This document shows, piece by piece, positions 2,998 through 21,382 of a stretch of DNA of 64,000 nt. The DNA comes from Candidatus Bathyarchaeota archaeon (GTDB taxonomy: Archaea > Thermoproteota > Bathyarchaeia > Bathyarchaeales > Bathycorpusculaceae), in NCBI GenBank assembly GCA_018396675.1, contig JAGTQX010000010.1:1-64000 (forward strand), written 5' to 3'. Both the position numbers and the translations under genes were made by a program. The first letter of the stretch is position 1. Each line of letters starts with the position of its first letter. Below the pieces are notes generated by a model that ran no database searches, had not been told where the DNA came from, and saw only the letters and a list, made by a program, of their open reading frames with translations.

Positions 2998-3081
2998 TCT
3001 GTAAACACTCCATGTTCTGGCGCAATATTATCTGCCGGATTATGTTATTTTGCCTTGCTAAACTTTGTAGGTTTCGGACTT

Positions 3082-3702: not shown

Positions 3703-3798
3703 TCTTCATCACCTTTTCCGTGATAATATACAAGCAACTTATTAAACTTAATCATCTAAATGTTCTATAAATCCCTAAAGCGTTGAAAGTGACTTGAA

Positions 3799-4416: not shown

Positions 4417-4444
4417 AGGTTACACTCAAGAGAGTGGTGGTGTC

Positions 4445-4969
4445 ATGGTTAAACGTGGACTTTTTGTCGGTAGATTCCAGCCCTTCCATTTGGGGCATTT
4501 GGGCGCGGTGGAAGATATTTTGAAGGAGGTTGATGAACTTGTGATAGTTATAGGGAGCGCCCAGTACAGCCATCGTATAGATAACCCTTTTACGGCTGGT
4601 GAAAGGCTTGTTATGGTTCGTAGAGCTTTAGAAGAGGCAAAGATAGATAATTCGCGAATATGGATAGTGCCGGTGCCAGACGTGCATCTGCACATGATGT
4701 GGGTTTCCGCTGTTGAGGGTTATACTCCACGTTTTGATGTTGTTTACTCTAATGAGCCTTTGACACGGAGGCTTTTTATAGAGGCTGGTTACACGGTCAA
4801 ACCCATACGCTTCCACAGAAGGGACGTTTATTCCGCAACAGAAATTAGGGAGAGGATGTTGATCGGGGGAAACTGGGAGGAACTTGTTCCCAAAAGTGTG
4901 GCTGCTTTTATAAAAGAGATTGACGGCACCAAAAGGCTTCAAGACTTGACAAAAAGCGATAAGGTGTAA
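4445..4969 (+). CDS. nadM: Nicotinamide-nucleotide adenylyltransferase, archaeal NadM type
   Basis: A 174-residue enzyme joining NMN (or NaMN) and ATP to give NAD or its deamido form. The N-terminal GLFVGRFQPFHLGHL carries the HxGH nucleotidyltransferase motif, IGSAQYSHRIDNPFTAGER is the archaeal NadM signature, and the C-terminal YSATEIRERM corresponds to the ISSTxIR element. Length matches archaeal NadM. ATG 4445 is preceded by a ggtggtgtc purine-rich stretch. Confidence 0.95.
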   Translation: MVKRGLFVGRFQPFHLGHLGAVEDILKEVDELVIVIGSAQYSHRIDNPFTAGERLVMVRRALEEAKIDNSRIWIVPVPDVHLHMMWVSAVEGYTPRFDVVYSNEPLTRRLFIEAGYTVKPIRFHRRDVYSATEIRERMLIGGNWEELVPKSVAAFIKEIDGTKRLQDLTKSDKV

Positions 4970-5091
4970 CTTTATTCCTATTCTTAAAGTAAAGAAAGGT
5001 TATTAAATTTCAAAGAACTTAAATTAAAAGGGTTGAAACTGAATTATTTGCGTTTCGCCTTAACGGGAAACGTTTAGTGGTTGGATGGAAG

Positions 5092-5601
5092 TTGGGAAGG
5101 AGAAGAAGAAAAGTAGTTCGCATGCCTAAAAAACGTCTACCAAAGTCGTTTGACTGTCCAGAATGTGGGAAGACAAGCACCATTGGTGTTAACATTACGT
5201 CACAGAAGCCGCTAATAATTGCAAGGTGCAGCGAGTGTGGAAAGGAAATAGTAAAAGAGTTTGTTGGAAACAAAGAAATGACCTTTGAATGTCAAAACGA
5301 AAGTTGTCCAAACTATAACCAGACGATATTGCGGGTTCGCCCCTTTTCAGAACACGTAATATTTGCCGAATGCGGTAAATGTCATGGAAAAACCCTTCTT
5401 CAACTGCCTCTGGAAGATGCTCCAATTAACTGTTCCTGTGAAACGCAAAAACAAGTTAGGTTAACAACCCGCCCAGCTGAGAGGCTTGCAACTTTAACTT
5501 GCGGAAGCTGTGAACTAATCTGCTATCTTTTAGCCAGTCCAGTTGATGAACCAGTTGACATTTACGGAAAATTTTTAGATAGATATTATGGCAAAGGATG
5601 A
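5092..5601 (+). CDS. Zinc-ribbon protein with Elf1-like N-terminus
   Basis: A Cys-rich protein with at least two zinc-binding modules. The N-terminal GRRRRKVVRMPKKRLPKSFDCPECGK followed by ARCSECGK has the basic tail plus CxxC...CxxC layout of archaeal/eukaryotic elongation factor Elf1. A second CxxxxC...CGKC module and a third CSC/CGSC pair follow, making it longer than Elf1 (about 170 versus 80-100 residues). The TTG at 5092 is preferred over the tracked GTG at 5077 because it gives the family-typical MGRRRRK start and has GGATGG just upstream. A role in transcription is inference. Confidence 0.75.
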   Translation: MGRRRRKVVRMPKKRLPKSFDCPECGKTSTIGVNITSQKPLIIARCSECGKEIVKEFVGNKEMTFECQNESCPNYNQTILRVRPFSEHVIFAECGKCHGKTLLQLPLEDAPINCSCETQKQVRLTTRPAERLATLTCGSCELICYLLASPVDEPVDIYGKFLDRYYGKG

Positions 5602-5633
5602 CTTCCTCTTCTTTATCCTACATGGTGTGATGG

Positions 5634-5795
5634 TTACAGAACTATGGACAATAATTTTATAATAAATCCTATTAGTCCTACTGCTCCTATTCCTAAGAAG
5701 CAGATTTTAATCGATAGCCAAAGCTCGCTTCTTCCTGGTTTTACAGCGAGTTTTAGTGTTCTTGCACATTGAGATAGAAATGACCTTAAGCCCAT
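5634..5795 (-). CDS. secE: Preprotein translocase subunit SecE / Sec61-gamma (too short for the ORF track)
   Basis: A 53-residue minus-strand reading frame from ATG at 5795 to TAA at 5634. It begins MGLRSFLSQCARTLKLAVKP, then GRSELWLSIKI, then one hydrophobic helix GIGAVGLIGFIIKLL. The amphipathic helix, the KP-x-R-x-E hinge and the single C-terminal membrane span are the hallmark of archaeal SecE, which clamps the SecY channel in the cytoplasmic membrane. The usual partner nusG/spt5 is not adjacent; dtdA lies upstream on the same strand. Confidence 0.88.
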   Translation of the reverse strand: MGLRSFLSQCARTLKLAVKPGRSELWLSIKICFLGIGAVGLIGFIIKLLSIVL

Positions 5796-5864
5796 GGTTC
5801 AACACAAAAATAACATTCAACGTCATATAAGCGTTGCTGAAGCCCTTTTGTCTAATTATATCCT

Positions 5865-6689
5865 TTACACCTTTCGTATAGCCAAGCCCAAATTTTCAAG
5901 CATTTTGATAAGCCCTGTTTTATGTTCGCCTTTTATTCCTTTCCAATCAAGAACTGCATATTCAACCTTTTCCAATGTTTTCTTGACGCATTGCCTAACA
6001 ATTTCTTCGTCAATGTAGGGAACTGCATATTTCGGGATTATGTGACCGAATGCTACGTCACTTTCCAACGCCATCTTCGTAAATTTCATGTTATAATGAG
6101 GCCCTCCTACACCTAACACTGCCCCCGCCTCTATTTTTCCAAAATTGGATATCGCTTCCATTGTTGCAAGCGCCACAGCTTCAGCTGCTTTTTGGTCACT
6201 CCACTGTTTAGGCGAACTCCCCAGCTCAGCGAACATTGCAGGCACATTTAACGATGGACCGTGATGGGTGCATTCATATGAGACTTCGTATTCAAGGTGC
6301 ATCTCGTTTTTGAGTCGCGCCATCGCCTTTAAGCATTCTCTCATGGCTGTTGCGGGCGAGACTGAAACGCTCTTTGGGAGCCCGCCAAGCTCTGCTGCGC
6401 CTAAATTGCCTGGTGTATGCACCGACAATGTTGGAGTGCCGCTTAGACTACTATGTCTTGAAACGAAAATTACAAGTTCAATTTCTTTGAAGAAACTAGT
6501 TAGGTCTTGTGCGAAAACAGGTTCCTTGTTCAACGTCACAAGTTTGATGTCGACGCCATCAACTTCCGCTTCATATACCTTGTTTCCTTGAAAATTCTCT
6601 GACGCTTTCTTGAAATTGAAGTCGCATAAAATTTGTTTCGAGATGTTTAGACCAGCATTGTCTTTATTAGAGGCAACTATCAGAATCAT
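5865..6689 (-). CDS. dtdA: D-aminoacyl-tRNA deacylase, archaeal type
   Basis: A 274-residue zinc-dependent proofreading enzyme that hydrolyses D-aminoacyl-tRNA. Family markers are MILIVASNKDNAGLNI at the start, the VFVSRHSSLSGTPTLSVHTPGNLG block with conserved histidines, TAMRECLKAM, EVSYECTHHGPS and GVGGPHYN. Length and order agree with archaeal DtdA (GEK1 family). secE follows 69 bases downstream on the same strand. Confidence 0.93.
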   Translation of the reverse strand: MILIVASNKDNAGLNISKQILCDFNFKKASENFQGNKVYEAEVDGVDIKLVTLNKEPVFAQDLTSFFKEIELVIFVSRHSSLSGTPTLSVHTPGNLGAAELGGLPKSVSVSPATAMRECLKAMARLKNEMHLEYEVSYECTHHGPSLNVPAMFAELGSSPKQWSDQKAAEAVALATMEAISNFGKIEAGAVLGVGGPHYNMKFTKMALESDVAFGHIIPKYAVPYIDEEIVRQCVKKTLEKVEYAVLDWKGIKGEHKTGLIKMLENLGLAIRKV

Positions 6690-6750
6690 TTGCGCTTCCC
6701 CTTGAAAAGAACACCAGTTGAAGTAAAAACCTTTCTAATGCAACCAAAAA

Positions 6751-6760
6751 ATTTATAAAA
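6751..6760 (+). promoter_or_regulatory. TATA-like box upstream of speH
   Basis: The stretch atttataaaa sits 103 bases before the speH GTG. A start site some 25-30 bases downstream would leave a leader of about 75 bases. Position and composition fit an archaeal TATA box; no BRE was tested. Confidence 0.4.
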
Positions 6761-6862
6761 CAAAGTTTTCGCGAAATCTCGTAGAGATAGAGGATAGAAA
6801 ATATATGTGTAAAATGCTCGTCAACTCGCGTGCAAGCCTAGGGATTTCGACGATAATGTTGG

Positions 6863-7228
6863 GTGTTCGATATGGGCATTCACATTATCGCCGAGTTCCT
6901 GGGCGTAAGCCCGGAAAAGATTGCCAAAGCGGAAAATTTACGGGAGATTTTAGATAGGGTAGTTGCTAAATCTAATTTACATGTGGTTTCCTCTAGTTTT
7001 CATCAATTTGAGCCGTATGGAGTTTCCGCCGTTTACCTTTTGAGTGAATCACATCTAAGTATTCACACGTGGCCCGAATACTCTTATGTGGCATTGGACA
7101 TTTTCACCTGCGGGGAAGATGGTCCTGCATTCAAAGCTTTCAAGTTGCTGGTTGAGGAGCTTCAACCTAAGACTGTTAAAAAGAAGGTTATTAGGAGGGA
7201 AATTCTTGAGGGAAAAAGCGGAAACTAG
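6863..7228 (+). CDS. speH: S-adenosylmethionine decarboxylase proenzyme
   Basis: A 121-residue pyruvoyl enzyme that makes decarboxylated AdoMet, the aminopropyl donor for polyamines. The self-cleavage motif ESHLSIHTWPE is intact, with the serine that becomes the pyruvoyl group, followed by ALDIFTCG. Size matches the prokaryotic class 1B enzyme. GTG at 6863 is used in the track; ATG at 6872 (GIHIIAEFLGV) is an equally good start. An in-frame TAA at 6854 bounds the choice. The 3' end overlaps bpsA. Confidence 0.94.
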   Translation: MFDMGIHIIAEFLGVSPEKIAKAENLREILDRVVAKSNLHVVSSSFHQFEPYGVSAVYLLSESHLSIHTWPEYSYVALDIFTCGEDGPAFKAFKLLVEELQPKTVKKKVIRREILEGKSGN

Positions 7229-8270
7229 AATACTACATATGCTTGCCCCATCAAAGAAAACAATATGGGAACTTCTGGAAAACTTTAATGCTCCATTGAA
7301 AGATTTCATTGTTTCTTTAAAAAACCTTTTAGAAAATGGATTAGTTGCCTCGGACATGGAGGGGTTCTATCTCACTGAAAAGGGCAAAAAAGAGGTTAAC
7401 CCAGAAAGTTTAAAATTTAAAAGCAAAATATGTCCGGAATGCTCTGGAAAAAGGGTGATTTTCGAAGGAAAGTTTAAGGAAATCCTAACAGAATTTAAAC
7501 GTATAACAGAGAAACGACCACCGCCGACAATCGATTTTTTCCAAGGTTATATGCAGGAGCGGGATGTAATATCAAGGGTTGCGTTGATGCATAATTACAA
7601 TGATTTAGATGGAAAGGAAATTATCTTGATGGGTGATGACGACTTATTAAGCATAGCCCTATCCTTAACAAAACTTCCAACACGAATCGTGGTTTTAGAC
7701 ATTGATAAAAGATTAGGTGATTTCCTAAAGGAAGTTAATAGTGAATATGGCTTCACAATAGAGTTCAAAGAGTATGATGTTGCACATCCGTTACCAACCG
7801 ACGTTATCGGAAAATTTGACGTTTTTTCTTCGGAACCACTTGAAACGCTAACAGGGTTGAAGGCGTTTATTTGCAGGGGTATAAGTTGCTTAAAAGAAAA
7901 TGGAGTTGGATATTTTGGACTGACGGTTCTTGAAGCTTCTTACAAAAAATGGTTGGCTGTTCAGAAGCTTTTGATGAAGATGAATTGTGTAATCACAGAC
8001 ATTGTTCAAGGGTTTTCGGCTTATCCAATGGATTATGGCAACGTAAACTATGAAAAATTCGTTTACGATATAGGTTTTGTAGTTGATAAAAACCCCGGAA
8101 TAAACTGGTATAAATCTTCGCTTTTCAGGTTCGAAGTGTTGGGGAAACCTAAACTCCTGGTAAAACCCGACGAGTATGTGAGGGTGAAACCTGTTGACCC
8201 AGAAGAAGATTTAACACATCCATCTTTGTATCCGTCAATTCGGAAGAGATTCGCCAAAAGGTGTTCATAA
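7206..8270 (+). CDS. bpsA: Branched-chain polyamine synthase (N4-bis(aminopropyl)spermidine synthase, DUF43)
   Basis: About 354 residues. An N-terminal winged-helix region (LEKAETRILHML...) is followed by a CPEC zinc-like pair and a Rossmann aminopropyltransferase core: LMGDDDLLSIALSL and VVLDIDKRLGDFL, with FDVFSSEPLET. This matches the BpsA family, which adds two aminopropyl groups to the central nitrogen of spermidine. The tracked start (7086) is rejected: TTG 7206 has a strong AGGAGGG six bases upstream and gives the family length. It overlaps speH by 23 bases, so the donor-making and donor-using enzymes are translationally coupled. Confidence 0.92.
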   Translation: MREKAETRILHMLAPSKKTIWELLENFNAPLKDFIVSLKNLLENGLVASDMEGFYLTEKGKKEVNPESLKFKSKICPECSGKRVIFEGKFKEILTEFKRITEKRPPPTIDFFQGYMQERDVISRVALMHNYNDLDGKEIILMGDDDLLSIALSLTKLPTRIVVLDIDKRLGDFLKEVNSEYGFTIEFKEYDVAHPLPTDVIGKFDVFSSEPLETLTGLKAFICRGISCLKENGVGYFGLTVLEASYKKWLAVQKLLMKMNCVITDIVQGFSAYPMDYGNVNYEKFVYDIGFVVDKNPGINWYKSSLFRFEVLGKPKLLVKPDEYVRVKPVDPEEDLTHPSLYPSIRKRFAKRCS

Positions 8271-8295
8271 CCAGTAATGTTAAGGGGTAGTTTTT

Positions 8296-8817
8296 ATGGT
8301 AACGAATAAAGAGAGCATAACAGAGTTAATTCAAACTAAAGTGCGCATTCGCCGGGCAAAGGAAGAAGATCTGCAAGAAGTTGTTAGATTAGCTATGGAG
8401 CTTGGCAGAGATGAAAGTGTCAGAGACTCTATGATATCGGCTTCTCCAAGCGGGTTTCAAAATCCAGAGTGGATTCTAAAGAATATCAAAGGAGGAAATG
8501 CTGCAGTTTTCGTGGCAGAATTGGATGGAAGGATTGTGGGTTATTCTTTGGGTTGGATAAGCCAGCCTTGGGCTTACAAGGGTAAACGCGGTTACATTTG
8601 CGATTGTTTTGTTGAAAAATCCTACAGAGGTAAGGGTATTGGAAGAATGCTTGTCAACCAAATCCTTGAATGGTTTATCAGCAACGGCGTGGAATGCGTT
8701 GAGGCCGATGTTTACTCTGACAACATACGGTCACTAAAGCTGTTTAAATCACTGGGTTTTAAAGAAATATTCAAAAGACTACGCTTTATGGTAAAAGACC
8801 GCGAGAATCAGCTTTAA
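8296..8817 (+). CDS. GNAT-family N-acetyltransferase
   Basis: A 173-residue single-domain GNAT protein. The acetyl-CoA loop is CFVEKSYRGKGIGRMLVNQIL, followed by ADVYSDNIRSLKLFKSLGFKEI, the typical motif B end. The substrate cannot be read from sequence. It lies 25 bases after bpsA on the same strand and before a carbamoyltransferase, so a polyamine or amine substrate is conceivable, but RimI-like protein acetylation is equally possible. ATG 8296 has aagggg upstream. Confidence 0.88.
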   Translation: MVTNKESITELIQTKVRIRRAKEEDLQEVVRLAMELGRDESVRDSMISASPSGFQNPEWILKNIKGGNAAVFVAELDGRIVGYSLGWISQPWAYKGKRGYICDCFVEKSYRGKGIGRMLVNQILEWFISNGVECVEADVYSDNIRSLKLFKSLGFKEIFKRLRFMVKDRENQL

Positions 8818-8836
8818 AATTATGCTTTTCATAAAA

Positions 8837-8844
8837 CTTATAAT
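8837..8844 (+). promoter_or_regulatory. TATA-like box for the carbamoyltransferase gene
   Basis: The motif cttataat lies about 30 bases before the GTG at 8868. That spacing would place transcription start at or near the start codon, suggesting a leaderless mRNA separate from the speH-bpsA transcript. Confidence 0.4.
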
Positions 8845-8867
8845 GGTTGAGGCTCTCAAGCTAGAAC

Positions 8868-9791
8868 GTGGTTAAAATGCATTTAATCAACTTTAAAGAG
8901 TTATCCGGTAGCCAGCTTATGGAAATAGTTGATAAAGCCATTGACGTCAAGCGTAACCCGGAAAAGTATTGTAATGCCTTGGATGGAAAGTCTCTTGCAA
9001 TGATTTTTCAGAAAACCTCTACCAGAACCAGAGTTTCTTTTGAAGTTGCCATGACCCAGCTTGGTGGACATGCGCTTTACATTGATTGGAGAACTACGAA
9101 CTTCACGATTGCAGATGTTTATGACGAAACGCAATACTTGTCACGTAATGTTGACTGTATAATGGCTAGGCTTCTGCGAAATGCGGATTTGCAGGTTATG
9201 GTTAGGGCTTCCCGCGTTCCAGTAATTAATGGATGCGATGAAAAATATCATCCCAGCCAAGCCATAGGAGACTTGATGACAATGAAGGAAAAGAGAGGAA
9301 AACTAAAGGGCTTAAAGCTTGTCTACATAGGCGTTCACAACAACATCTGCAACTCGCTGATTGAAGGGTGCACAAAAACTGGAGTGAAAATTATCACAGT
9401 GACGCCAATTTTTCATGAACCATGCAGAGATGACGAGCTTTTGGAAAACGCAAGGAAAACTGGGCTTTGGGAAACAACTTTAGATGTCAAGGAAGCGGTG
9501 AAAGACGCGGACTTCGTTTACACGGACACTTGGGTTGACATGGAATTTTTCACAGACCCAAAGTTTGCCGCCGAAAAAGAAAAGCGTGTTAAACTGATGA
9601 TGCCCTACCAAATAAATAAGGAGCTGCTGAAAGGAAGCAACGCTTACATAATGCATGACATGCCAATCCACAGAGGATACGAAATAGCTGAGGATGTCAT
9701 CGAGGATCCAAACTCGGTTATTTATGAGCAAAGCGAGAATAGGCTGTATTCTGCAAAAGCAATACTGTTGAAACTGTTGGGAAAATGCTAA
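8868..9791 (+). CDS. Ornithine-carbamoyltransferase-family protein with altered substrate motifs
   Basis: A 307-residue transcarbamoylase. The carbamoyl-phosphate site is intact (STRTR, HPSQAIGDLM). The amino-substrate side is not that of standard ArgF: the usual SMG loop reads VDMEFF in YTDTWVDMEFF, and the HCLP motif reads HDMPIHRG with Asp in place of Cys. The C-terminus (QSENRLYSAKAILLKLL) is family-typical. It could still be the ArgF of this organism, but an amine other than ornithine is plausible given speH, bpsA and a GNAT just upstream. GTG 8868 is kept because a TATA-like box fits leaderless initiation; ATG 8877 is the alternative. Confidence 0.82.
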   Translation: MVKMHLINFKELSGSQLMEIVDKAIDVKRNPEKYCNALDGKSLAMIFQKTSTRTRVSFEVAMTQLGGHALYIDWRTTNFTIADVYDETQYLSRNVDCIMARLLRNADLQVMVRASRVPVINGCDEKYHPSQAIGDLMTMKEKRGKLKGLKLVYIGVHNNICNSLIEGCTKTGVKIITVTPIFHEPCRDDELLENARKTGLWETTLDVKEAVKDADFVYTDTWVDMEFFTDPKFAAEKEKRVKLMMPYQINKELLKGSNAYIMHDMPIHRGYEIAEDVIEDPNSVIYEQSENRLYSAKAILLKLLGKC

Positions 9792-9846
9792 AATGCAAAA
9801 ACAAGTTTAAGGAATTTATGGAAAAAGAAAGCTGATCTCATCCTGG

Positions 9847-10752
9847 CTATTTTAGAATCATTTGTACGAATTTTTCTGGGTTGAACTCCTCTAGGTCATC
9901 GTATTTTTGTCCAGTTCCTATGAATAGTATGGGCTTTTTTGTTACGTAGGTTACGCTTAGGGCTGAGCCGCCTTTAATGTCCGCATCCACCTTAGTCAAT
10001 ATTGTTGCGTCTACTCCAACGCTTTTGTGGAATTCCTCAGCTTGCATTACTGCGTCGTTTCCGGTGAGCGAATCCACCGTCAATATTGTTAAGTCTGGGT
10101 TTATGACGCGCTTAATCTTTGCAAGCTCGTTCATCAAGTTCTTGTTTGTCTGCATTCTACCGGCTGTATCGATTAAAACGACGTTTATCCCATGAGCTTT
10201 CGCATGGTTTATTGTGTCATAGGCTACGGCGGCGGGGTCAGAGCCATACTTGTGTTTTATCATGCGTATACTTAAGCGTTTTGCATGCTCCTCTAACTGT
10301 TCTATTGAGCCCGCGCGGTAGGTGTCGCTACAGGCAAGAACAACCGAATAGCCTTTATTACTGAGGAAGCGCGCTACTTTCGCTATGGTTGTGGTTTTTC
10401 CTGTGCCGTTTATTCCGACAAAAACTATGACAAAAGGTTCGCCTTTTTTGCGTTTTTCTTCAACAGCCTCTAATAGGTTTATTCTGTTGTTTGTGCGCAT
10501 AATCTCTAATAGCACTTCTCTGAGTTTTTCCTCCACAATTTTTCTGCGGTCTTCAAGCCTTTTAACCTGAAGCCCATCTAACAGTTTTCCCATTTCATCA
10601 CATATCTTTTCAGACACGGGAAAGGCGACATCGTTTTCTACGAGGCTTATTTTGAACTCTGAAAGCACTGGGCGGAGGTTTTCAGCCTTAAGCTCTGTTG
10701 TTGTAACCTTGTTTACAAGCCCTTTGAGGCCTGACTTCAGCCTCTCAAACAT
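9847..10752 (-). CDS. ftsY: Signal recognition particle receptor FtsY
   Basis: A 301-residue SRP-family GTPase that docks ribosome-SRP complexes at the membrane. An N domain (LKSGLKGLVNKV...) precedes the G domain with GINGTGKTTT (P-loop), DTYRAGSIEQL (insertion box), DTAGR, TKVDAD and the closing FIGTGQKYDDLEEFNPEKF. There is no acidic A domain, which is normal for short archaeal FtsY. Its ATG overlaps the pfdA stop by 8 bases, the classic archaeal order. Confidence 0.96.
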   Translation of the reverse strand: MFERLKSGLKGLVNKVTTTELKAENLRPVLSEFKISLVENDVAFPVSEKICDEMGKLLDGLQVKRLEDRRKIVEEKLREVLLEIMRTNNRINLLEAVEEKRKKGEPFVIVFVGINGTGKTTTIAKVARFLSNKGYSVVLACSDTYRAGSIEQLEEHAKRLSIRMIKHKYGSDPAAVAYDTINHAKAHGINVVLIDTAGRMQTNKNLMNELAKIKRVINPDLTILTVDSLTGNDAVMQAEEFHKSVGVDATILTKVDADIKGGSALSVTYVTKKPILFIGTGQKYDDLEEFNPEKFVQMILK

Positions 10753-11194
10753 TTCTTGGCGTTGTCTCCTCTCTGAATTTGGCTAGCAGGTTGTCAAATT
10801 TTTCTTTTCCTTCGCTCATTCTTTCTGCAATTTGGGCGAGTTGCTGCTGAAGGGACATCCTCGTCTTCTCCAAGCTTTCTAGTCGGTTTTTGATGAGTTC
10901 TTTTGCTTCTTGCAGTGTTTTTTCAACGGATATTCCAGCGCCCATTCCAACGATGATTTTGTCTGGGCTTTCAAGTTTCGCTTTTATGTAGGAGCCCCCT
11001 CCTATGGGAACTAGGAGCTCCGAGTTTTCCTTTTCCTTTTCTAATCCTTCCAGCGTCATACTTGCGTAGGTTAGGTCAGTTATGGCGGCGTTTACCATAT
11101 TTATCCTAGCTTGTATCGCTTCGGCAGTCTGCTCAAGAAAACGTAATTCAACGCTTAATCTACGTAGTTCCTCTTCTTCACTTTTGCTTGCCAA
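10745..11194 (-). CDS. pfdA: Prefoldin alpha subunit
   Basis: A coiled-coil chaperone subunit that with prefoldin beta forms the hexameric holdase delivering unfolded proteins to the thermosome. Heptad-rich N- and C-terminal helices flank a beta-hairpin region containing LLVPIGGGSYIKAKL and VGMGAGISVEKTL, as in the family. I prefer TTG 11194 over the tracked 11215 because GGAGAAGGAGA lies immediately upstream and the protein then begins MASKSEEEEL. It overlaps the L18a gene by 17 bases. Confidence 0.92.
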   Translation of the reverse strand: MASKSEEEELRRLSVELRFLEQTAEAIQARINMVNAAITDLTYASMTLEGLEKEKENSELLVPIGGGSYIKAKLESPDKIIVGMGAGISVEKTLQEAKELIKNRLESLEKTRMSLQQQLAQIAERMSEGKEKFDNLLAKFREETTPRNV

Positions 11195-11435
11195 GTTCTC
11201 CTTCTCCAGCAGCAAGTTTTTTCAGTAATAGGCTTTTTATTTCTTCTGGTGGGATTTCTTTAACACTTGCTATTTTTATGTGGAAGCGTTTAACGCGGTG
11301 TTTGCTGCCGAGTTCGCAGTAGACTTTTTCCACGGCGTGTTCTGGTTTGACAGTCATCACTTCCTTTTTGAAGGGTGTTTTCAGGTTTGGTTTTCGAATT
11401 TCGCCTGTGACTCTAAAAACTTTCACTTTGTTCAT
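11178..11435 (-). CDS. rplX: 50S ribosomal protein L18Ae (LX)
   Basis: An 85-residue archaeal large-subunit protein. The sequence KVFRVTGEIRKPNLKTPFKKEV followed by AVEKVYCELGSKHRVKRFHIKI is characteristic of the LX/L18ae domain. It lies between aIF6 and prefoldin alpha, the conserved archaeal order, and overlaps both (23 bases with eif6), implying tight translational coupling. Confidence 0.94.
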   Translation of the reverse strand: MNKVKVFRVTGEIRKPNLKTPFKKEVMTVKPEHAVEKVYCELGSKHRVKRFHIKIASVKEIPPEEIKSLLLKKLAAGEGELGKQK

Positions 11436-12108
11436 CTTCCTTTACAACATCCAATGCATTCCCAATTATAAACATCTCGGGTCCGGTTGTCAAGGAACCA
11501 GCTATGGCAGCATAACTGTTGCTGATCAATCCCGTTTTAACATATGGTATTCCACAGTTAACAGTGCCGACGTCAACTGGAACCTTCAGCACATCCTCCA
11601 AAAGCTTCTTTTCCTCCTCCTTAAGTAGCGGATGGGCTAAAACTCCCTTGTTTGTAGCTACGGCTAACGAACCAACGTAAGGTAAGCCGGCAACTTCACC
11701 AGTCACTACTTCAACTCCTAAAGTGTCAGAAATTAGCCTTATTTCCCAATCTTTTAATCGTGGGTCAACGACTGCTCCACGGTCGTTTGCTAAAATCATG
11801 TTTCCGAAGGCTGTTTTCTTAGTTTCCATGACTGTTATGTTTCCGTCGAATACGCTTTTTATGGCTTCAAGTTCCTCTTCGTTAACAAAATGCGGAAGCA
11901 CAATACCGTTTGAGTTTGCGCATGCGAGGGCGCCGATCAAAACTGAGCCGCCAATCATTGTGTGTATTAGTTTAACTTTCATCCATTCAGCAAGTCTCTC
12001 AGCCTTTTTAATTGGTGTCAACTTTGGAATGATGATGATTTTATCTGTGGCAAGCGCGTAAACGCCTATACTTGCGCTGCCGAAAAGGCTGGAAAAGTAA
12101 ATGGCCAA
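11413..12108 (-). CDS. eif6: Translation initiation factor 6 (ribosome anti-association factor)
   Basis: A 231-residue pentein-fold protein that binds the large ribosomal subunit and prevents premature joining. The repeats are visible: SSLFGSASIGVYALATD at the start, GSVLIGALACANSNGIVLP, GNMILANDRGAVVDP, YVGSLAVATNKGVLAHP and CGIPYVKTGLISNSYAAIAG. Length matches aIF6. It lies 3 bases after the L31e stop and overlaps L18a. Confidence 0.96.
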   Translation of the reverse strand: MAIYFSSLFGSASIGVYALATDKIIIIPKLTPIKKAERLAEWMKVKLIHTMIGGSVLIGALACANSNGIVLPHFVNEEELEAIKSVFDGNITVMETKKTAFGNMILANDRGAVVDPRLKDWEIRLISDTLGVEVVTGEVAGLPYVGSLAVATNKGVLAHPLLKEEEKKLLEDVLKVPVDVGTVNCGIPYVKTGLISNSYAAIAGSLTTGPEMFIIGNALDVVKEDEQSESF

Positions 12109-14610: not shown

Positions 14611-15378
14611 TTATGTTTGAACTTGAAGTTTTCTGCTTAAGCCGATAATTTTTCGTTTTTCCAGCCAGGAATAGTATGCCTCGTCAATGTTGCATGTGTT
14701 AAGCACGAAATCCCTTATGAATTTGGCGTGTTCTCTAACGAGTTTTTCAGCCTCTTCCCTTGTTAATTTTCCCATTTCTAGGAGAATTTCGAAGGTTTCC
14801 ATGGGTTTGAGGCAGTAAAGCCTCTCAGCACATTTGACATTAGCTTTGTGTCCGAACCCTCTTATTCTTTGAGCCAGTTTCCACCCATTGATGCCTGCTA
14901 AACATACAGTTTTACCTTCAGCTTTGGAGGCTACCACCTCTGCCTCCCAATCGGTTGCTTCTGTTCTAAGAGACCACCTCAAGGTTTTAATCCACTCGTC
15001 AACATCCACTTTGTCGGTGATGTTTACTCTTAAGGTTAGGCTGGCTATTTTGGAAGCTACATCCGCCAACATGTGGTAGTGGTCTACATCCTTGTAGCAG
15101 AAGATTTTAACGTCTTTACGAAGTCTTTGCAAAACCTCTAATATAGGCTCATTTAGATAAAGCCATGAATTCACCGGTTCAGGAATAAAGCTTCCACATT
15201 TTATACGTTCAACCAAATCGTTTAATGATGCAAAGCCATAGGCATAGCTGCAAATAGAAGATTGAAGATTGTATGGATAATTTAGAAAAACTACATTATA
15301 ATTCCCATTAAGCATATTTGCAGCCTTCACAGCTGAACTTCTGAGACTTGGAACTATAAGTACGTCAACTTCAGCCAT
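14611..15378 (-). CDS. Conserved-looking cytosolic protein of unknown function
   Basis: 255 residues, no recognised family. It starts MAEVDVLIVPSLRSSAVKAANML, a hydrophobic strand followed by helix, suggestive of a Rossmann-like fold, and has a helical, charged C-terminal half (LLEMGKLTREEAEKLVREH). Six or more cysteines are scattered without a zinc pattern. There are no membrane helices. It lies alone between the tRNA relic and the remnant zone. The codon pattern looks coding throughout. Confidence 0.6.
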   Translation of the reverse strand: MAEVDVLIVPSLRSSAVKAANMLNGNYNVVFLNYPYNLQSSICSYAYGFASLNDLVERIKCGSFIPEPVNSWLYLNEPILEVLQRLRKDVKIFCYKDVDHYHMLADVASKIASLTLRVNITDKVDVDEWIKTLRWSLRTEATDWEAEVVASKAEGKTVCLAGINGWKLAQRIRGFGHKANVKCAERLYCLKPMETFEILLEMGKLTREEAEKLVREHAKFIRDFVLNTCNIDEAYYSWLEKRKIIGLSRKLQVQT

Positions 15379-15587
15379 ACAAATTTAATAATCGCTCAGC
15401 AACCAATAATAGATTTCGATTTCATGTGTGAAAACTAAAATTAAATTTGTCGCCTAAAGAGTCGACTCCTGCCAATAATATTACTTATCTTCGGTTTAAA
15501 GGTTCGCAGTGTACTATTGCGGCTGAATAATCTTTATTTTTAAATTGCCATTTCGAATTTAATTGAGAAATTGGGGATGGTGCTTAG

Positions 15588-15698
15588 GTGAAAAAGAGGC
15601 GGCGAAAGGCTTCAGATGTGCTGGACGAGATCGACCTTAAAATGATAAAGGAAGCCCTCAAACTGGACAAAAAGCGAAAGAGAGACTACATTGTTTAG
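15588..15698 (+). CDS. Possible 36-residue basic mini-protein
   Basis: GTG 15588 to TAG 15698 encodes MKKRRRKASDVLDEIDLKMI and a Lys/Arg-rich end (KLDKKRKRDYIV). A purine-rich ggggatgg lies upstream. It is helical and charged, with no family recognised. It is the only plausible coding unit between 15.4 and 15.8 kb; it could also be chance. Confidence 0.3.
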   Translation: MKKRRRKASDVLDEIDLKMIKEALKLDKKRKRDYIV

Positions 15699-15777
15699 CC
15701 TTAATCACTCTCAATTAGATAGCTTCTAAACTTTAAATTCTGTTTAAACCCTTTCCTCGGTTTTTCAGTAACGTGTC

Positions 15778-16060
15778 CTATGGTGATTCTCGCTTAAAGT
15801 GTTCCTTGGAAGCGATGTGCCAGAGTAACGGTTCACCAGCCTTTAAGCGAAACCAAGACTTTTCAGCTAGGCTTGGAAGCCTCTTCGCCGTCGCTCTAAA
15901 CAGCACTATCGCAATTATAGATGATAAGAATACGTGGAGCGCGTTGAATACGCCGTTGAGGGCTAATGCCCATAATAGGATGCCAATTGTGGAAGTTACA
16001 GTTATTCCCACGTTTTTAATGAATATTCTGAGAACTTCAGGAATTCAGGCGCAACAAATA
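15778..16060 (-). pseudogene. Frameshifted remnant of a small membrane protein
   Basis: The minus strand reads a hydrophobic protein in two frames. One frame gives AVVLLFVAPEFL; after a shift the second continues LRIFIKNVGITVTSTIGILL, then ALNGVFNALHVFLSSIIAIVLF and a basic tail. No start codon with an RBS serves the full product. The plus-strand ORF over the same bases (15773-16078) has no protein-like features. I read this as a decayed gene of unknown family. Confidence 0.4.
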
Positions 16061-16084
16061 GGAGGACAACAGCGTTAAGGAGTT

Positions 16085-16210
16085 ATGGACGTTGTCGTTG
16101 AGAGGAACGCCTTCGGCAGGCAGAGGGAACTCACCGGAGACACACGAATACACCAGTTGCTCATCAACAGGTTAAACACTTTCTGGCGCAAACTCGACGT
16201 AACCGCTTAA
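16085..16210 (+). CDS. Possible 41-residue protein or gene fragment
   Basis: ATG 16085 to TAA 16210, with AAGGAG two bases upstream. The product begins MDVVVERNAFGRQRELTGDT and is amphipathic-helical (INRLNTFWRKLDV). The composition is protein-like but no family is recognised. It lies between two degenerate genes, so it may itself be a relic. Confidence 0.3.
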   Translation: MDVVVERNAFGRQRELTGDTRIHQLLINRLNTFWRKLDVTA

Positions 16211-16261
16211 AGGGCTGTTCAATAACTTAAACAACTAGATTGAAGTATGAGCACTTGATAC

Positions 16262-16471
16262 TTCGGTGTACGTCGGCTCCTCTACGCAGAGCTTCCTCGG
16301 CGATAGCCACCCCATTCTCCCGGAACTTCTGTTTGTTATAACTCTTATTGGATCAATGTGTTCAAACGTGGGTCCGCCGTTATGAGTAACTTCTTTCCAA
16401 GTAAATCTTTGAATGTGCAAGCTTTCTGATAACCGTGTCTACAACATCCTTTACGTCGGCGATTTTCCTAT
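16262..16471 (-). pseudogene. Decayed fragment of coaBC (phosphopantothenoylcysteine synthase domain)
   Basis: Three consecutive frames of the minus strand together give the CoaB N-terminal region: VKDVVDTVIRKL, then KDLLGKKLLITA, then GPTFEHIDPIRVITNRSSG-RMG, then VAIAEEALRRGADV. The IDPIRVITNRSSG block is the diagnostic CoaB nucleotide-binding motif. At least three frameshifts in about 200 bases make it non-functional. The CoaC (decarboxylase) half that should lie upstream is missing: the similarity stops near 16.47 kb, right where the integrated element begins. Confidence 0.7.
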
Positions 16472-16745
16472 AAACTCTTTAAACACATTTAAATTTCAAT
16501 GCTTGCAAGATGCATTAGAGCCTTTACATCAGCCCCAGCCCAAAAATTAGATTTCCGATGATTTCTTTTAAAATTTCCAAAACTTACATTTCTGTTAAGA
16601 AACGTAAAAGTATAGTTAACTGTTAAAAAAGATATTAACAGCAGTGACTTTCTCATTTTAAAATTCAACTTTCCTAGTTTAATTATTTTATTTATAACGG
16701 AAAATAACACTGATTTAGGCTTCTTTTCTATCATCCTATCAAAGA

Positions 16746-16771
16746 TTAAACCTTATATGCATAAGGTTTAA
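16746..16771. repeat. Perfect inverted repeat, 11-bp arms, 4-bp loop
   Basis: ttaaaccttat, atgc, ataaggtttaa: the arms are exact reverse complements. It lies 73 bases beyond the integrase stop codon, so it may be a terminator for the element's operon, an integrase or RHH-protein binding site, or part of the attachment site. Confidence 0.7.
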
Positions 16772-16843
16772 TTTTCGTTCGGAAAACAAAAAACAACCCC
16801 CAAAACAAGTTGCTTTCCGTCTATGTATATTAAATAAACTAGT

Positions 16844-17596
16844 TTAGGCGTTCAGCTTTGCTTTCCTCATTTTTGACGCTAACCCCTTCCATCCGCGTCT
16901 TGCGTAGGTTAACGCTGTGCCATAATGTTCCCATGAGAAGTAATCCACTAAGTCTGCAACTTCGAAGCCAAAGTCGCTTACCAGTTGGCTGGCTCTTTGG
17001 CTTCGGAACCAGTGAAGCCACAAGTGCAGCTTGTCAGCTACGAGTTTACCATTTTTAATGAAGGGTTTGTCTAAGCCTAGTTTCTGCTTTAATTCAAGTG
17101 GAAGTGTTTTATCTAGGCTTCTTATGAAGTGGTATGCCCAGAAACGTGACAGTGGCTCTCCATGCTTGTATGGGCTTGGAAAAAGCAGATCTTTGCTTTG
17201 CTCAATCCAAGCTAGCAATATTGGAGTTAAAGGTTCTCTGAGCAATATTGGAAAGGGCTTTCGTGTAGCCTGCACCTTCTCAGTTACCCAATGTTTTTTG
17301 CCTGAAACGTCAACTTGCTCAGCTGTCTTTTTGTATCGTTTAAGCAGTGGCATACCACGAACAATCAGGACCCGTTCTCGCCTCCTCAACTCAAAATTTT
17401 CTTTTCGCAGCGACAACACTTCCCCAACTCTTCCACCCGTTAAAAACAGGCAAGCCAAAAAAGCTCTGTTTCTTCCAGACTCTGCATGGTTGATTAATTC
17501 GCAAAGTGGTTGCCACCCGCAAAACTCTTCAACGAAATCTTTAACGCTTAGCCTTGCATAAGTGTGGCTGCTCCAATGTCCAACTCTAACGAACAT
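16844..17596 (-). CDS. Tyrosine recombinase / integrase
   Basis: A 250-residue phage-integrase-family catalytic protein. The catalytic set is visible: Arg56 in LTGGRVGEVLSL, His195-x-x-Arg198 in HLWLHWFRSQRA, a W/H position in SWEHYG and the nucleophile Tyr231 in TALTYARRG. It is short, lacking a long N-terminal core-binding domain, but is not split as in SSV-type integrated viruses, so the element may still recombine. It is the last gene of the element's minus-strand array. Confidence 0.9.
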   Translation of the reverse strand: MFVRVGHWSSHTYARLSVKDFVEEFCGWQPLCELINHAESGRNRAFLACLFLTGGRVGEVLSLRKENFELRRRERVLIVRGMPLLKRYKKTAEQVDVSGKKHWVTEKVQATRKPFPILLREPLTPILLAWIEQSKDLLFPSPYKHGEPLSRFWAYHFIRSLDKTLPLELKQKLGLDKPFIKNGKLVADKLHLWLHWFRSQRASQLVSDFGFEVADLVDYFSWEHYGTALTYARRGWKGLASKMRKAKLNA

Positions 17597-17750
17597 AGCT
17601 TTCCATCTCCTTTCTTTTCACTCTGTTTTGTTCAAGCCTGTAAGCTTCATATGTGATGACGTTTTCCATCCGCACTTGGTTAAGCATCTCTTTTGAAAGT
17701 TGCCTCTCCAAATCCATTCTACGCCTCTGTCTCTGTCTTCGCTTTTTCAT
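17586..17750 (-). CDS. Small highly basic protein, function unknown
   Basis: About 54 residues starting MKKRRQRQRRRMDLERQL; Arg/Lys-rich N-terminus followed by a charged helix. It overlaps the integrase start by 11 bases. The tracked start at 17771 (GTG) is possible, but the ATG at 17750 is preferred. The arrangement suggests a DNA-binding accessory such as an excisionase, which is inference only. Confidence 0.5.
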   Translation of the reverse strand: MKKRRQRQRRRMDLERQLSKEMLNQVRMENVITYEAYRLEQNRVKRKEMESYVR

Positions 17751-17838
17751 TTTTCCCACGTCTACGTTCACCCAACCCGGAAATAATAATGATGATAATC
17801 AAACCGAAAATCAAAAACAAATATTCTCCATTACTCAT
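17719..17838 (-). CDS. 39-residue single-span membrane mini-protein (not in ORF track)
   Basis: ATG 17838 to TAG 17719 encodes MSNGEYLFLIFGLIIIIIIS, then GLGERRRGKNEKAKTETEA: one hydrophobic helix with a basic cytosolic tail. Its ATG overlaps the RHH gene stop (aatgagtaa), a typical coupled junction. Its 3' part overlaps the basic-protein ORF by up to 32 bases, which weakens but does not exclude it. Confidence 0.45.
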   Translation of the reverse strand: MSNGEYLFLIFGLIIIIIISGLGERRRGKNEKAKTETEA

Positions 17839-18004
17839 TTGCCTTTACCCCAAAAATTCGCAGTCGAATAAACTGGCTTACATGTCTCTTACCAGCCAAC
17901 TTCCGCAGCCTTTCATATTCACTCCATGAAACCCTAAAACTGACTACGACACGTTTTGTATTACATCGTTTTTTGCTGTTGCCTAGCCTACTCTTCTCAT
18001 TCAT
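17831..18004 (-). CDS. Ribbon-helix-helix (CopG/Arc-like) DNA-binding protein
   Basis: About 57 residues from ATG 18004. KRVVVSFRVSWSEYERLRKL gives the beta strand and first helix and VSQFIRLRIFGV the second helix of an RHH fold. Such proteins act as dimeric repressors or copy-number regulators in archaeal plasmids and viruses. It overlaps the upstream HTH gene by 8 bases. The tracked start at 18034 lies deeper in that gene and is less likely. Confidence 0.65.
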   Translation of the reverse strand: MNEKSRLGNSKKRCNTKRVVVSFRVSWSEYERLRKLAGKRHVSQFIRLRIFGVKANE

Positions 18005-18518
18005 TTTTATTCTCCCCCATAAACACACATGCATTCTGCAACAGAACCTTACAAGCCAGCTTATGTTTCGGATAGAGCAAGTTTAAGCTGCTGATAAGCT
18101 CCCCAAGCAAGTCTGTTGGCTTGTTAACCGTCGACACAGGTTCAGAGTCTGCTTTTTGTTTTTTGCCAACTGCAATTAAGCCAAGCTCTTTAAGTTTCTT
18201 ATACACCTTATGTTCTTTCAAGCCAAGTTGTTTTGCTATTGCTCTATGTCCTAGCTTTTGGTTTCTTAACAACTTCAGCTTTTCAACAAGCTCTGGTGTC
18301 CATTCTGGCTGGCTTGACTGCTGCGGCTGATTTGACTTTTTACGTAAAAAGAAACATACTTTGCCGTCTAACCTTCCCTGGAGAATCTGCACGCCTTCAC
18401 TGTCCAACTGGCTTGTCCACATGTTCATGTAGTCTTTGCTTGGAACTGGCACAACAGTGCCGAAGGGATCAATTTGTTTTAAGCCGAACTTTTCAGCCAA
18501 CTGTTCAAACAGTGGCAT
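17997..18518 (-). CDS. Helix-turn-helix protein of the element
   Basis: 173 residues from ATG 18518, two bases after the primase-helicase stop; the tracked extension to 18632 runs inside that gene and is rejected. The centre, LLRNQKLGHRAIAKQLGLKEHKVYKKL, is a clear HTH. The N-terminal part (MPLFEQLAEKFGLKQIDPFG) and the C-terminal helical part are unassigned. It may be a replication or transcription accessory of the element. Confidence 0.7.
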   Translation of the reverse strand: MPLFEQLAEKFGLKQIDPFGTVVPVPSKDYMNMWTSQLDSEGVQILQGRLDGKVCFFLRKKSNQPQQSSQPEWTPELVEKLKLLRNQKLGHRAIAKQLGLKEHKVYKKLKELGLIAVGKKQKADSEPVSTVNKPTDLLGELISSLNLLYPKHKLACKVLLQNACVFMGENKNE

Positions 18519-18520
18519 AC

Positions 18521-21109
18521 TCACCCACTCCTTTTTGCTGGCTGTCCAGTGTGCAACCTCAAAACATGCAAGTCTAAGTCTGCTTGTGTGGCGAAAAACA
18601 TTGGCTTGCCAATACTTCTGCAAAACTGGCATTCCAGCAAGACGTTGCCATCTTTGGTGTAAACTTTGCTGCCTTCACGCTTCACAATCCAAGAATCCTC
18701 TAACTGACTCGTAACCGAGTTACTAAGTGCACCGAGTTCCAGAGGCGTAGGAGCCTCTTTTTCAACATTGTTTTTATGGACTTTTTCCATAGTTTCAGAA
18801 GTGCTTACACTCTCGGAACTCGGTTCACTCGGTAACTTAGTTACGAGCTCATAGCCATACTTTTTAGCTATTCTTTTCAGTTTGGTTACGTCGAAGGTGT
18901 AGGCTTTAACTCTTGGACATTCCTCGTCGGGTACTCCCTCTAACTTTTGCCTTATTGTTTTCGATTTTCCACTTAAAATCTCCCTAAGTCTATAACCAAC
19001 TTTGTTTTTTGTCACGTCGTCGAATTCGCTTGTATGCATGACATAGTCTTTCTGCAAGTCTATTTTACCATCCAACTCTTCTTGCAAGCTGCTCCAAATG
19101 GTGGAGAACGGAATTGTTGGCAAGCCATCCAAGTTGCTGTTAAACAAGTCAACCACTACTTTGACGATTTTTCCTTCCAACGTGTCTTGTTTTCCACTCA
19201 GTCTTTCTTTCTGCTGCTCTTCCAGAAAAATCTGCAGTGTTTCGTAAACAGGCAAGCCGTAGGCAACTTGCAGCAGAGGCTTCCACAACTCTTTTAATCT
19301 TCCCTTAATTTTAAGCTGGATTTCCGGCAACTCTTGGTTTCGAGTTAACATTCTCCATTTTAGCAGTTTGTTTCGTAAAGTGTTTAACTGTTCCATCTGC
19401 TCTTTTGTTAAGTCAACCCATTCAAGCTGTGGGTAGCCTTCAACCATCGGCACGAAAATGAATCTTTCGTTGAAGCCTTTCACCTTCGGAATCTGCTCGC
19501 TTGCACATGCCTTGAAGCAAAATACATTGTAGTATTTGATGTACCTAGAATATTCCGTCGCTATCATTCTCGGAACTTTGGCTCCTCGAGTGTAACCAGC
19601 CTTGTAAGCTTTGATTTTATCCGTATCCTTCTCAATTCCCTGCACTTCATCCTCTAAAATGCAGCCAATCGAATCTGAATCTTCCAAGTAGCCATACAAG
19701 TCTGCTGCTGGAATAGTCACTCCGAAAAGAGGCCTATAACAAAGTTTGTTTAACACTTTTAGAACTGTGCTTTTTCCACTTTCGTTGTCTCCGTAAAAGA
19801 AAAGGTACGGCACAGTCTGTAGTTTCTCTTGTTGGTAACTCATTAAAACGCAAACTGCAAGGATGTCTTGGTAAATTGGCTCCGCATCAATGAGCTTTTG
19901 AATCCACATCTTGACATCTTCGAACAAGTTTTGAACGTTAACTTCACCTTCATAGAAACCGTAAGGCTCGTAAGGCATGTTTCTGGCTTCTTTCGGAAGA
20001 AACCTTTTTCCTTGAGTTTCAACCTTTTCCGCAATAAAGAATTTTCCAGTGTTCAAAATCAAGAAGCATGGTTTTCCATTGTCGTAAATTGCCTCAAAAC
20101 ATCCGTCTGGCAGCACACCAGAATCCTTTAATTGTTTCTTCGCTAATTCTTGCTCCTTCATTTCCGCTAGACTGCAGTTTTCCATGTCGCATAAGCTTGC
20201 CAGAACGTTGTCGCTGCATCCGAAAACGTACCGTTTTTCCACTGCACTTTTAAAACAAGCAGAAAGTTCAGTTTCAGGTAAAGGAGGCTGGTTCCACTGG
20301 TTCCACTCTTGAATTTGCTTCCAAGCCTTTTTCGGCTCCAACTTCTTAAAGTTGCAGAGAAAAGCCGCCAGTCGAATGGCATATTCATTGCGTAGCCCCT
20401 GCCTCGTGCCTTCCATCAAGTTTTGAATACACGGCGGAGTCTTGCCTCTGTAAGGTTGTTTGGCTAACTCTGGCTTGTCAAACCAAACTTCGGCTGGCTT
20501 TTCAACTTTAACTCCAGCCTTTTCCAAAGCTGAATAAAACAAAGTTTCCAAATCGGAAACTTCTGTTGGAGTATTGTCATTTAGCCTTCTGTAACCTTGG
20601 CTTGGAGCCATTATTAACAGCTTGTTTTCTCCAATTAATTCCAAAGCAGCCACGTTATGAAAAGCAACAATGCTTTTTGGCTTAACACGGCAATAATAAA
20701 TCCAATGTTGTCCTCTGCTTGGAGTCTCTTCCATCTGAGTTATTGGCATAAACTTTAAAACTTGTTTTCCAACTTCCACAACATTTTCTGAAAGATTTTT
20801 TACGTCAAAATCTAAAGCTGTAAAAAACAAGCCGTTAGACAATTGTGAGCCACATACCACGGCAAAGCTATCAGCTTGGCTCCAAGGTAAACTTTCAAAC
20901 TCTTCCTCAGTTTGTTTTTGGCTTTGCCATTTTTGCCATTCATGCAGTGGCTTCTTTTCTTTTAAAACAACAACTGGCAAACCTTGACTCCAATATTCCT
21001 TTGCAACATCCTTCAGGTTCGCTTTTCTCCATGCTTCCACAAACTTTTTAGCTTCGTTTTGCCCTTTTTCCAGTAGACTCTTCCTCCTTTTTTCTGGTTT
21101 AAGCTTCAA
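18521..21109 (-). CDS. Primase-helicase replication protein with C-terminal C2H2 finger
   Basis: 862 residues. Residues ~40-200 resemble an AEP primase-polymerase domain: FTALDFDVKN (metal-binding acidic pair) and PSRGQHWIYY (SxH-type motif). Residues ~225-315 hold Cys227, Cys298, Cys307 and Cys312 around GTRQGLRNEYAIRLAAFL, an arrangement like PriL-type Fe-S domains; this is inference. A superfamily 3/D5-like ATPase follows: Walker A GDNESGKST (440-448), Walker B CILEDEVQ. The end carries C-x2-C-x17-H-x4-H (CQFC...DLHVLRLH). Together this is the initiator, primase and helicase of a small replicon. Its stop is next to the HTH gene and its start overlaps the RHH gene. Confidence 0.85.
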   Translation of the reverse strand: MKLKPEKRRKSLLEKGQNEAKKFVEAWRKANLKDVAKEYWSQGLPVVVLKEKKPLHEWQKWQSQKQTEEEFESLPWSQADSFAVVCGSQLSNGLFFTALDFDVKNLSENVVEVGKQVLKFMPITQMEETPSRGQHWIYYCRVKPKSIVAFHNVAALELIGENKLLIMAPSQGYRRLNDNTPTEVSDLETLFYSALEKAGVKVEKPAEVWFDKPELAKQPYRGKTPPCIQNLMEGTRQGLRNEYAIRLAAFLCNFKKLEPKKAWKQIQEWNQWNQPPLPETELSACFKSAVEKRYVFGCSDNVLASLCDMENCSLAEMKEQELAKKQLKDSGVLPDGCFEAIYDNGKPCFLILNTGKFFIAEKVETQGKRFLPKEARNMPYEPYGFYEGEVNVQNLFEDVKMWIQKLIDAEPIYQDILAVCVLMSYQQEKLQTVPYLFFYGDNESGKSTVLKVLNKLCYRPLFGVTIPAADLYGYLEDSDSIGCILEDEVQGIEKDTDKIKAYKAGYTRGAKVPRMIATEYSRYIKYYNVFCFKACASEQIPKVKGFNERFIFVPMVEGYPQLEWVDLTKEQMEQLNTLRNKLLKWRMLTRNQELPEIQLKIKGRLKELWKPLLQVAYGLPVYETLQIFLEEQQKERLSGKQDTLEGKIVKVVVDLFNSNLDGLPTIPFSTIWSSLQEELDGKIDLQKDYVMHTSEFDDVTKNKVGYRLREILSGKSKTIRQKLEGVPDEECPRVKAYTFDVTKLKRIAKKYGYELVTKLPSEPSSESVSTSETMEKVHKNNVEKEAPTPLELGALSNSVTSQLEDSWIVKREGSKVYTKDGNVLLECQFCRSIGKPMFFATQADLDLHVLRLHTGQPAKRSG

Positions 21110-21266
21110 CTTCTAAAAGTCCATGATTCTCTAAGTCGCGTCGGATTAAATTTCGCAAGTAGTCTGAGAGAGACATAAATGAGCCGAGCCGTTTTTCCAT
21201 GATTCTGTAAAGTTGTTTTGGGATTTTCGCCGCTATTATCTCGGTTTCCACTTTATTTTTAACCAT
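21099..21266 (-). CDS. Ribbon-helix-helix protein, first gene of the element operon
   Basis: About 55 residues from ATG 21266 (MVKNKVETEIIAAKIPKQLY), with the second helix SDYLRNLIRRDLENHG. GGTGAG three bases upstream supports this start over 21284. It overlaps the primase-helicase start by 11 bases. As promoter-proximal gene it is a good candidate for autoregulation of the replication operon. Confidence 0.7.
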   Translation of the reverse strand: MVKNKVETEIIAAKIPKQLYRIMEKRLGSFMSLSDYLRNLIRRDLENHGLLEVEA

Positions 21267-21382
21267 ACTCTCACCCGTATTCAACCGTGGGTTGTTTAAA
21301 TTTAAATGTTTTTTAAAACAAAATGTAAAATCTTAAAATCAAAAAGTAAAATAAAACGTTAGATTTCTTATGAACACAAAAT

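Follow-up and report, generated by a model that had tools for sequence, protein, structure and literature searches.

A probable integrated replicon of a Bathyarchaeia-type archaeon with an origin-like inverted iteron array inside its initiator gene

Introduction

What kind of element is formed by a handful of closely packed genes that include both a multi-domain replication protein and a tyrosine recombinase, and where would such an element begin its replication? The question is raised by a seven-gene block on contig JAGTQX010000010.1 of a Candidatus Bathyarchaeota archaeon (assembly GCA_018396675.1), of which positions 1 to 64,000 of the forward strand were analysed and are here called the window. 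The largest gene of the block, rep (18521-21109, minus strand), encodes an 862-residue putative replication initiator, Rep862, that is made up of an archaeo-eukaryotic primase (AEP) domain, a PriCT/PriL-like four-cysteine domain, a superfamily 3 (SF3)-like ATPase, a winged helix and a C2H2-type finger. We conclude, with a probability of roughly 70%, that the block represents a compact, plasmid-like replicon integrated in the genome of a Bathyarchaeia-type archaeon, and that this replicon works like the Sulfolobus plasmid pRN1 and has an iteron origin inside rep. Plasmids of Bathyarchaeia are scarcely described, and a literature search turned up viruses of this group and no plasmids. The point of most interest is the origin-like inverted iteron array in rep rather than the list of domains, and it is this hairpin that was overlooked in a preliminary description of the locus.

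An inverted iteron array within rep

The candidate origin (18708-18847, no strand assigned) is an inverted repeat with two 33-nt arms, 18708-18740 and 18815-18847, separated by a loop of 74 nt, and it falls in a linker of rep, at codons 755-801, just past the winged-helix region. It is the strongest inverted repeat across the window, with a score of 20.5 compared to 14.0 for the next best, and in 60 synonymous codon shuffles of the rep gene the score never exceeded 13. The arms are made of 8-9-bp iterons (ACCGAGT / AACTCGGT), and an iteron spacing of 8,9 is mirrored by 9,8 in the related loci L032 and L037 and, if one degenerate unit is allowed, in the window. Furthermore, an inverted repeat is found at the same position of rep in L032, L037, L038 and L039, with none of 100 nulls in each case and likewise none of 100 for the window, and its left arm mostly lies about 20 nt past the codons for KKYG. 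The units themselves vary, since the arrays of L038 and L039 use GTAACCnAT and GCGGAnAA, and that of L158, an IMG/VR contig, is built of GTTCCAAA, three copies of which again show the spacing 8,9; this unit differs from that of the window. In L037 the reading frame of rep stops where the left arm ends, leaving loop and right arm noncoding, and coding constraint is therefore no explanation for the repeat there. Where reps with other ATPases were checked, L048 was the only one with a comparable repeat. The folding energy of the repeat region as single-stranded DNA is -34.7 kcal/mol (z -7.6). Synonymous-codon conservation between the window and L032 was also considered as evidence for an origin and was dropped, as it is uneven along the gene and does not single out the arms.

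For its replication pRN1 depends on a stem-loop, located 3' of orf904, that is variable in sequence but kept in structure, and the authors of that work proposed stem-loops of this kind as the sites at which AEP-SF3-winged helix proteins assemble (PMC4234260). Because of the conserved inverted iterons, the folding and this requirement in pRN1, we infer that the repeat is the replication origin, and that it is probably inherited with the ATPase-winged helix module and not with the primase. The block might instead be an integrated replicon in which the repeat is a recombination junction, or a regulatory hairpin, at the place where zinc modules are swapped, the true origin lying elsewhere, for example beside the promoter of the upstream ribbon-helix-helix (RHH) gene. 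This notion would agree with the fact that the zinc module past the repeat differs among relatives, which puts a breakpoint just there, and the far better folding of the single strand than of its shuffles would suit it as well. A junction, however, does not need mirrored iterons, a fixed spacing or a changing unit, the repeat accompanies the ATPase-winged helix part of rep, and the essential stem-loop of pRN1 is found at the equivalent position, past the winged helix on its 3' side (PMC4234260), all of which makes such an explanation unlikely.

Domain architecture of the initiator

Pfam matches of Rep862 to Prim-Pol (residues 36-181, E 1e-8) and PriCT_1 (residues 236-293, E 8e-7) are both above the curated cut-offs, and the AEP active-site residues D100, D102, H135 and E157 (DxD, sxH, hE) are invariant in an alignment of 12 sequences. 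An AlphaFold model of residues 28-345, the N-module, has a mean predicted local distance difference test (pLDDT) score of 74, with about 90 or more through most of the AEP part and lower values, about 40-80, for linker and helical domain. The best structural match of this model is ORF904 of pRN1, with Z 15.6 to 1rni (root-mean-square deviation 2.9 over 167 residues) and 15.0 to 3m1m, followed by NrS-1 at Z 8.7 and other AEP entries below; Foldseek likewise gives E 4e-6 against ORF904. Judged by its model, the N-terminal module is an AEP primase, and the AEP motifs pointed out in the preliminary description are thus confirmed by family match, active site and fold alike.

The four cysteines that were previously described as PriL-like, C227, C298, C307 and C312 (C-x70-C-x8-C-x4-C), are invariant in the same alignment. 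The helical domain that holds them gives a weak match to PriX (Z 4.7, the domain being modelled at low confidence), as well as weak but recurring matches to PriL (NCBIfam E 0.003; phmmer E 0.5), and these repeated if weak matches suggest that the domain may be PriL-like; the cysteines of the earlier claim hold, then, and its structural side stays at low model confidence. Kazlauskas et al. argue that PriCT domains are homologous to PriL (PMC5862659). The primase of the Bacillus plasmid pAD3 and that of Moorella phage MTATph1 show the same four-cysteine layout, which pORA1 and LfeSau lack. Since it is shared with pAD3 and MTATph1, the four-cysteine pattern marks one branch of the primases of mobile genetic elements and is not specific to the window element, and the combination of an Fe-S domain with a C2H2 finger, earlier held to be unusual, is less so than was thought, the four-cysteine module being common to bacterial plasmid and phage primases.

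The ATPase is recognized by a Walker A motif (GDNESGKS, 440), a Walker B motif (ILEDE, 484) and an arginine segment (ERFIF, 548), and a profile of ten ATPase modules matches the D5_N/DUF5906-type module of other reps of the same clade (96%, E 1.8e-9). No Pfam SF3 family matched Rep862 above threshold, and a profile search of the PDB with the ATPase alignment returned P-loop noise only and was discarded. Motifs and one profile comparison suggest an SF3/D5-like ATPase, and the D5/SF3 type proposed earlier is less firmly supported than the AEP fold. Residues ~642-750 were modelled at pLDDT ~70-88 in a helix-strand arrangement that is read as a winged helix. The C-terminal C2H2 finger, already claimed in the preliminary description, can be read directly from the sequence (C-x2-C-x17-H-x4-H).

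Exchange of modules

Relatives of Rep862 frequently match one half of the protein. Those that match residues ~30-315 only, at 50-59% identity, are found in genomes G002, G006, G013, G027, G037 and G051, those that match residues ~316-800 only, at 51-61% identity, in G001, G015, G032 and on the IMG/VR contig L158, and both halves are rarely matched together (G006, G023). The first exchange breakpoint is the junction between PriCT domain and ATPase. The C-terminal zinc module likewise varies under the same ATPase: window and L032 have one of the C2H2 type, L038 and L039 have different zinc domains, and L037 has none. One of the alternative zinc domains is common to reps with different ATPases; a second exchange point is the linker ahead of this module. 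Primase, ATPase and zinc modules are, on this comparison, exchanged among the elements. The chances are about even that the in-gene iteron origin and the helicase-winged helix part form one cassette, which would travel together as primase and zinc modules are swapped, with the iteron sequence free to change and the arrangement and the 8/9-bp spacing kept.

Relatives, mobility and element ends

Relatives of rep were found in 30 of 100 related genomes, with up to seven in one genome and with differing neighbours, and most of the contigs that carry them are titled Candidatus Bathyarchaeota. Scans of genome contigs and viral contigs with the single protein gave no matches, and the relatives there came from alignment-based searches. 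The closest relative, 80% identical, is that of L032 in G006, and it lies within an insertion of ~6.7 kb whose flanks are contiguous, at 92% and 89% identity on the two sides, in G034, a second genome from its genus, which thus presents the empty site; a 15-bp core, TCGTAAnnTCTAAAA, is found at both ends of the L032 element and in the empty site. This element shares its transmembrane (TM), basic, helix-turn-helix (HTH) and rep genes with the window element and has a different integrase. A further element, in G043, is a unit of ~8 kb bounded by a tRNA-Leu and a 45-bp direct repeat of its 3' end, and it has counterparts of the TM, basic, recombinase and HTH genes of the window element. As a second integrase is found beside the tRNA copy in this unit, the 250-residue recombinase of the window is not necessarily the integrase.

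That primase-helicase and recombinase are domesticated chromosomal genes that have lost their mobility is very improbable. It would account for the lack of attachment sites and of an empty site for the window copy, but the catalytic residues are all intact, the distribution is patchy with neighbours that differ in every genome, and the insertion that carries the closest relative is a clean one. The homologues lie in scattered places and are not fixed in synteny, and the structure search did return the AEP fold, so that neither of the outcomes by which the preliminary description could have been overturned was seen.

The block could also be a remnant of a spindle-shaped virus, or a satellite derived from one, which lost its capsid-like genes and is packaged with the aid of a helper in the manner of pSSVx. 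A 95-residue two-TM protein, encoded at 8226-8513 of L032 within the G006 element that carries the 80% identical rep, weakly matches the virion structural PHROG phrog_11172 (E 0.0023), as does a small two-TM protein encoded at 17088-17333 of L093, by a gene adjoining the G043 element, and the two are possibly, to judge from sequence, capsid proteins of spindle-shaped viruses. The ATPase is moreover found on an IMG/VR contig, and a spindle-shaped provirus of Bathyarchaeia is known (PMC10848311). The window element, however, lacks any capsid-like gene, and the one-TM protein that it encodes is as short as 39 residues. The PHROG matches are weak, and a search of phage records with the 95-residue protein found nothing, and we therefore regard a viral origin of the block as rather improbable. 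Of the minimal integrative plasmid or viral satellite originally proposed, the integrated replicon is upheld by AEP fold, patchy distribution and the insertion in G006, and the satellite is not, given the missing capsid gene.

Several points nonetheless weigh against an integrated replicon with its origin inside rep. Mobility is demonstrated by the relatives only. No attachment sites of the window element stood out among the direct repeats of its flanks (16488/21295, 16547/21359 and 16705/21410), which are of chance size for AT-rich DNA, and a search for an empty site by way of the flanking genes found the M3 peptidase gene and the 255-aa gene adjacent in none of the relatives examined. None of 11 small relative contigs had the overlapping ends of an excised circle or plasmid form. 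The inverted repeat is weak in L158 (3 of 100 nulls) and decayed in L036 (score 11, 19 of 100 nulls), and the stem-loop of the window consists of iterons within the rep frame, whereas that of pRN1 lacks iterons and lies outside the gene. Finally, a structure model of the C-module from three sequences left the ATPase part unfolded at pLDDT 20-30, and its Foldseek list was for this reason set aside as evidence on the ATPase.

The ends at 16485 and 21309 that were initially assigned to the element find no support: the 16488/21295 repeat, TTTAAATTTnAATG, is an AT-rich match barely above several others of chance size, and its right copy lies approximately where the promoter of the rep operon is expected.

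A second and larger element was noticed in the genome of the window itself (L035, ~2000-12100 of G000 contig 12), with a 1026-residue AEP rep, another ATPase type and many small genes. It also carries a zinc-ribbon recombinase-like gene of a family identified on its L032 member, namely tyrosine recombinases of 417-454 residues with an N-terminal zinc ribbon (CPECGS..LYRDGLRYL.....QRWLCR.CGYRFS), which occur downstream of rep in L032, L034, L035, L043, L046, L047, L048 and L049. In contig 68 of G013, two reps ~17.5 kb apart (L049 and L050) are equal in length, match scores and E-values, which suggests a duplicated element.

The other genes of the block

All seven of the tightly packed minus-strand genes previously listed, encoding an integrase, two RHH proteins, an HTH protein, a one-TM mini-protein and the 862-residue protein among them, are seen as open reading frames (ORFs), and since adjacent genes overlap by up to 38 nt or sit 2 nt apart, the block reads as a single operon. 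All the genes described in the following are on the minus strand. Directly upstream of rep, and overlapping its start by 11 nt, is the gene of a 61-residue CopG-like RHH protein, RHH61 (21099-21284), with a weak CopG-like PHROG match; RHH genes directly or closely upstream of rep are also found in L032, L033, L037 and L038. On the other side of rep follows HTH173 (17997-18518), an accessory protein with an HTH-like segment, whose ORF is listed at 211 residues and is taken as 173 since homologues, present in elements of G006, G043 and G027 (L032, L093 and L120), begin at its Met39. The second RHH protein (17831-18034), of 67 residues, or 57 if started from 18004, has a NikA-like, sub-threshold Pfam match to RHH_7. 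The one-TM protein (17719-17838, 39 residues) and the basic protein (17586-17771, 54-61 residues) form a pair that is kept in L032 and L093, where the TM protein has 35 and 46 residues, respectively, and is thus retained across elements whose integrases differ. The gene of the basic protein, likewise present in L032, overlaps the recombinase gene by 11 nt, in the window as well as in L093.

The tyrosine recombinase, Int250 (16844-17596, 250 residues), consists of the catalytic domain only, without an N-terminal core-binding domain, and has a Phage_integrase Pfam match above cut-off (E 1.4e-6) and the motifs GGRV, HWFR, WEH and TY (R...HxxR...Y). Its nearest relative, at 60-62% identity, is in the G043 element. 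In L095, L096, L097 and L098, which come from pairs of related genomes, catalytic-only recombinases of this type also stand alone between chromosomal genes and look as though fixed in the chromosome.

An 81-residue ORF at 16489-16734 had no match to support it, the GC content of the block is not distinguishable from that of its surroundings, and no tRNA was found near it. Between the recombinase and the 255-aa gene, ~1.4 kb (15378-16844 of the window) is free of convincing genes and has short ORF fragments on both strands; this DNA may belong to a decayed element or to the chromosome.

Proposed mode of replication

By analogy with the pRN1 repressor ORF56, the RHH protein would repress the rep operon. 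Rep862 would assemble, by way of its winged helix, on the inverted array of 8-9-bp iterons towards the 3' end of its own gene, as the conservation of the array suggests, and if the analogy to pRN1 holds further, its SF3-like ATPase would open the extruded or melted hairpin, the AEP domain would make the first primer with the four-cysteine domain assisting as a counterpart of PriL, and host polymerases would then take over. The tyrosine recombinase presumably serves in integration or in dimer resolution of the element.

Seen in this way, the element family offers a compact pair of initiator and origin from a major uncultured archaeal group, and a possible basis for vectors, as well as a natural set of iteron/winged-helix pairs in which origin recognition can be studied. 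It furthermore opens to experiment the question of why AEP-SF3 initiators have a stem-loop origin, a matter debated for pRN1 in terms of rolling-circle replication or a primase-opened hairpin.

Comparison with known systems

The primases of Bacillus velezensis pAD3 and Moorella phage MTATph1 resemble Rep862 in having the PPC...YGC...C...C layout after an AEP-like domain, but their helicase is a separate, neighbouring DnaB-like protein. In PolpTN2, as in other AEPs bearing PriCT/PriL-like domains, a PriS-like catalytic domain is likewise followed by a PriL-related one, which in PolpTN2 is a predicted 4Fe-4S PriL domain; a helicase of the window type is not reported for PolpTN2 in the parts of that source considered here, and in the window a single compact PriCT-like domain itself holds the four cysteines (PMC5862659). 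Integrated elements of Thaumarchaeota with AEP-S3H proteins are similar in being archaeal and in combining tyrosine integrases with AEP-SF3 proteins, but belong to another host class, and their AEP-SF3 genes, as far as the source was drawn upon, reside in integrative-conjugative elements, whereas the window holds a minimal element of seven genes (PMC6563490).

The closest parallel is the pRN1 family of Sulfolobus (orf56/orf904), in which an RHH/CopG-type gene likewise directly precedes an initiator composed of AEP, helical bundle, SF3 and winged helix, and with which Rep862 shares the AEP fold. In a tblastn search of plasmids, pORA1 was the sole archaeal plasmid matched (28% identity over 16% of the query, E 0.007), and as there is no close sequence relation to the pRN reps, the window element is said to work like pRN1 and is not classed as a pRN plasmid. 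Compared to pRN1, the helical domain of the window rep retains four invariant cysteines, the protein has an additional C2H2-type finger, and the operon includes a tyrosine recombinase.

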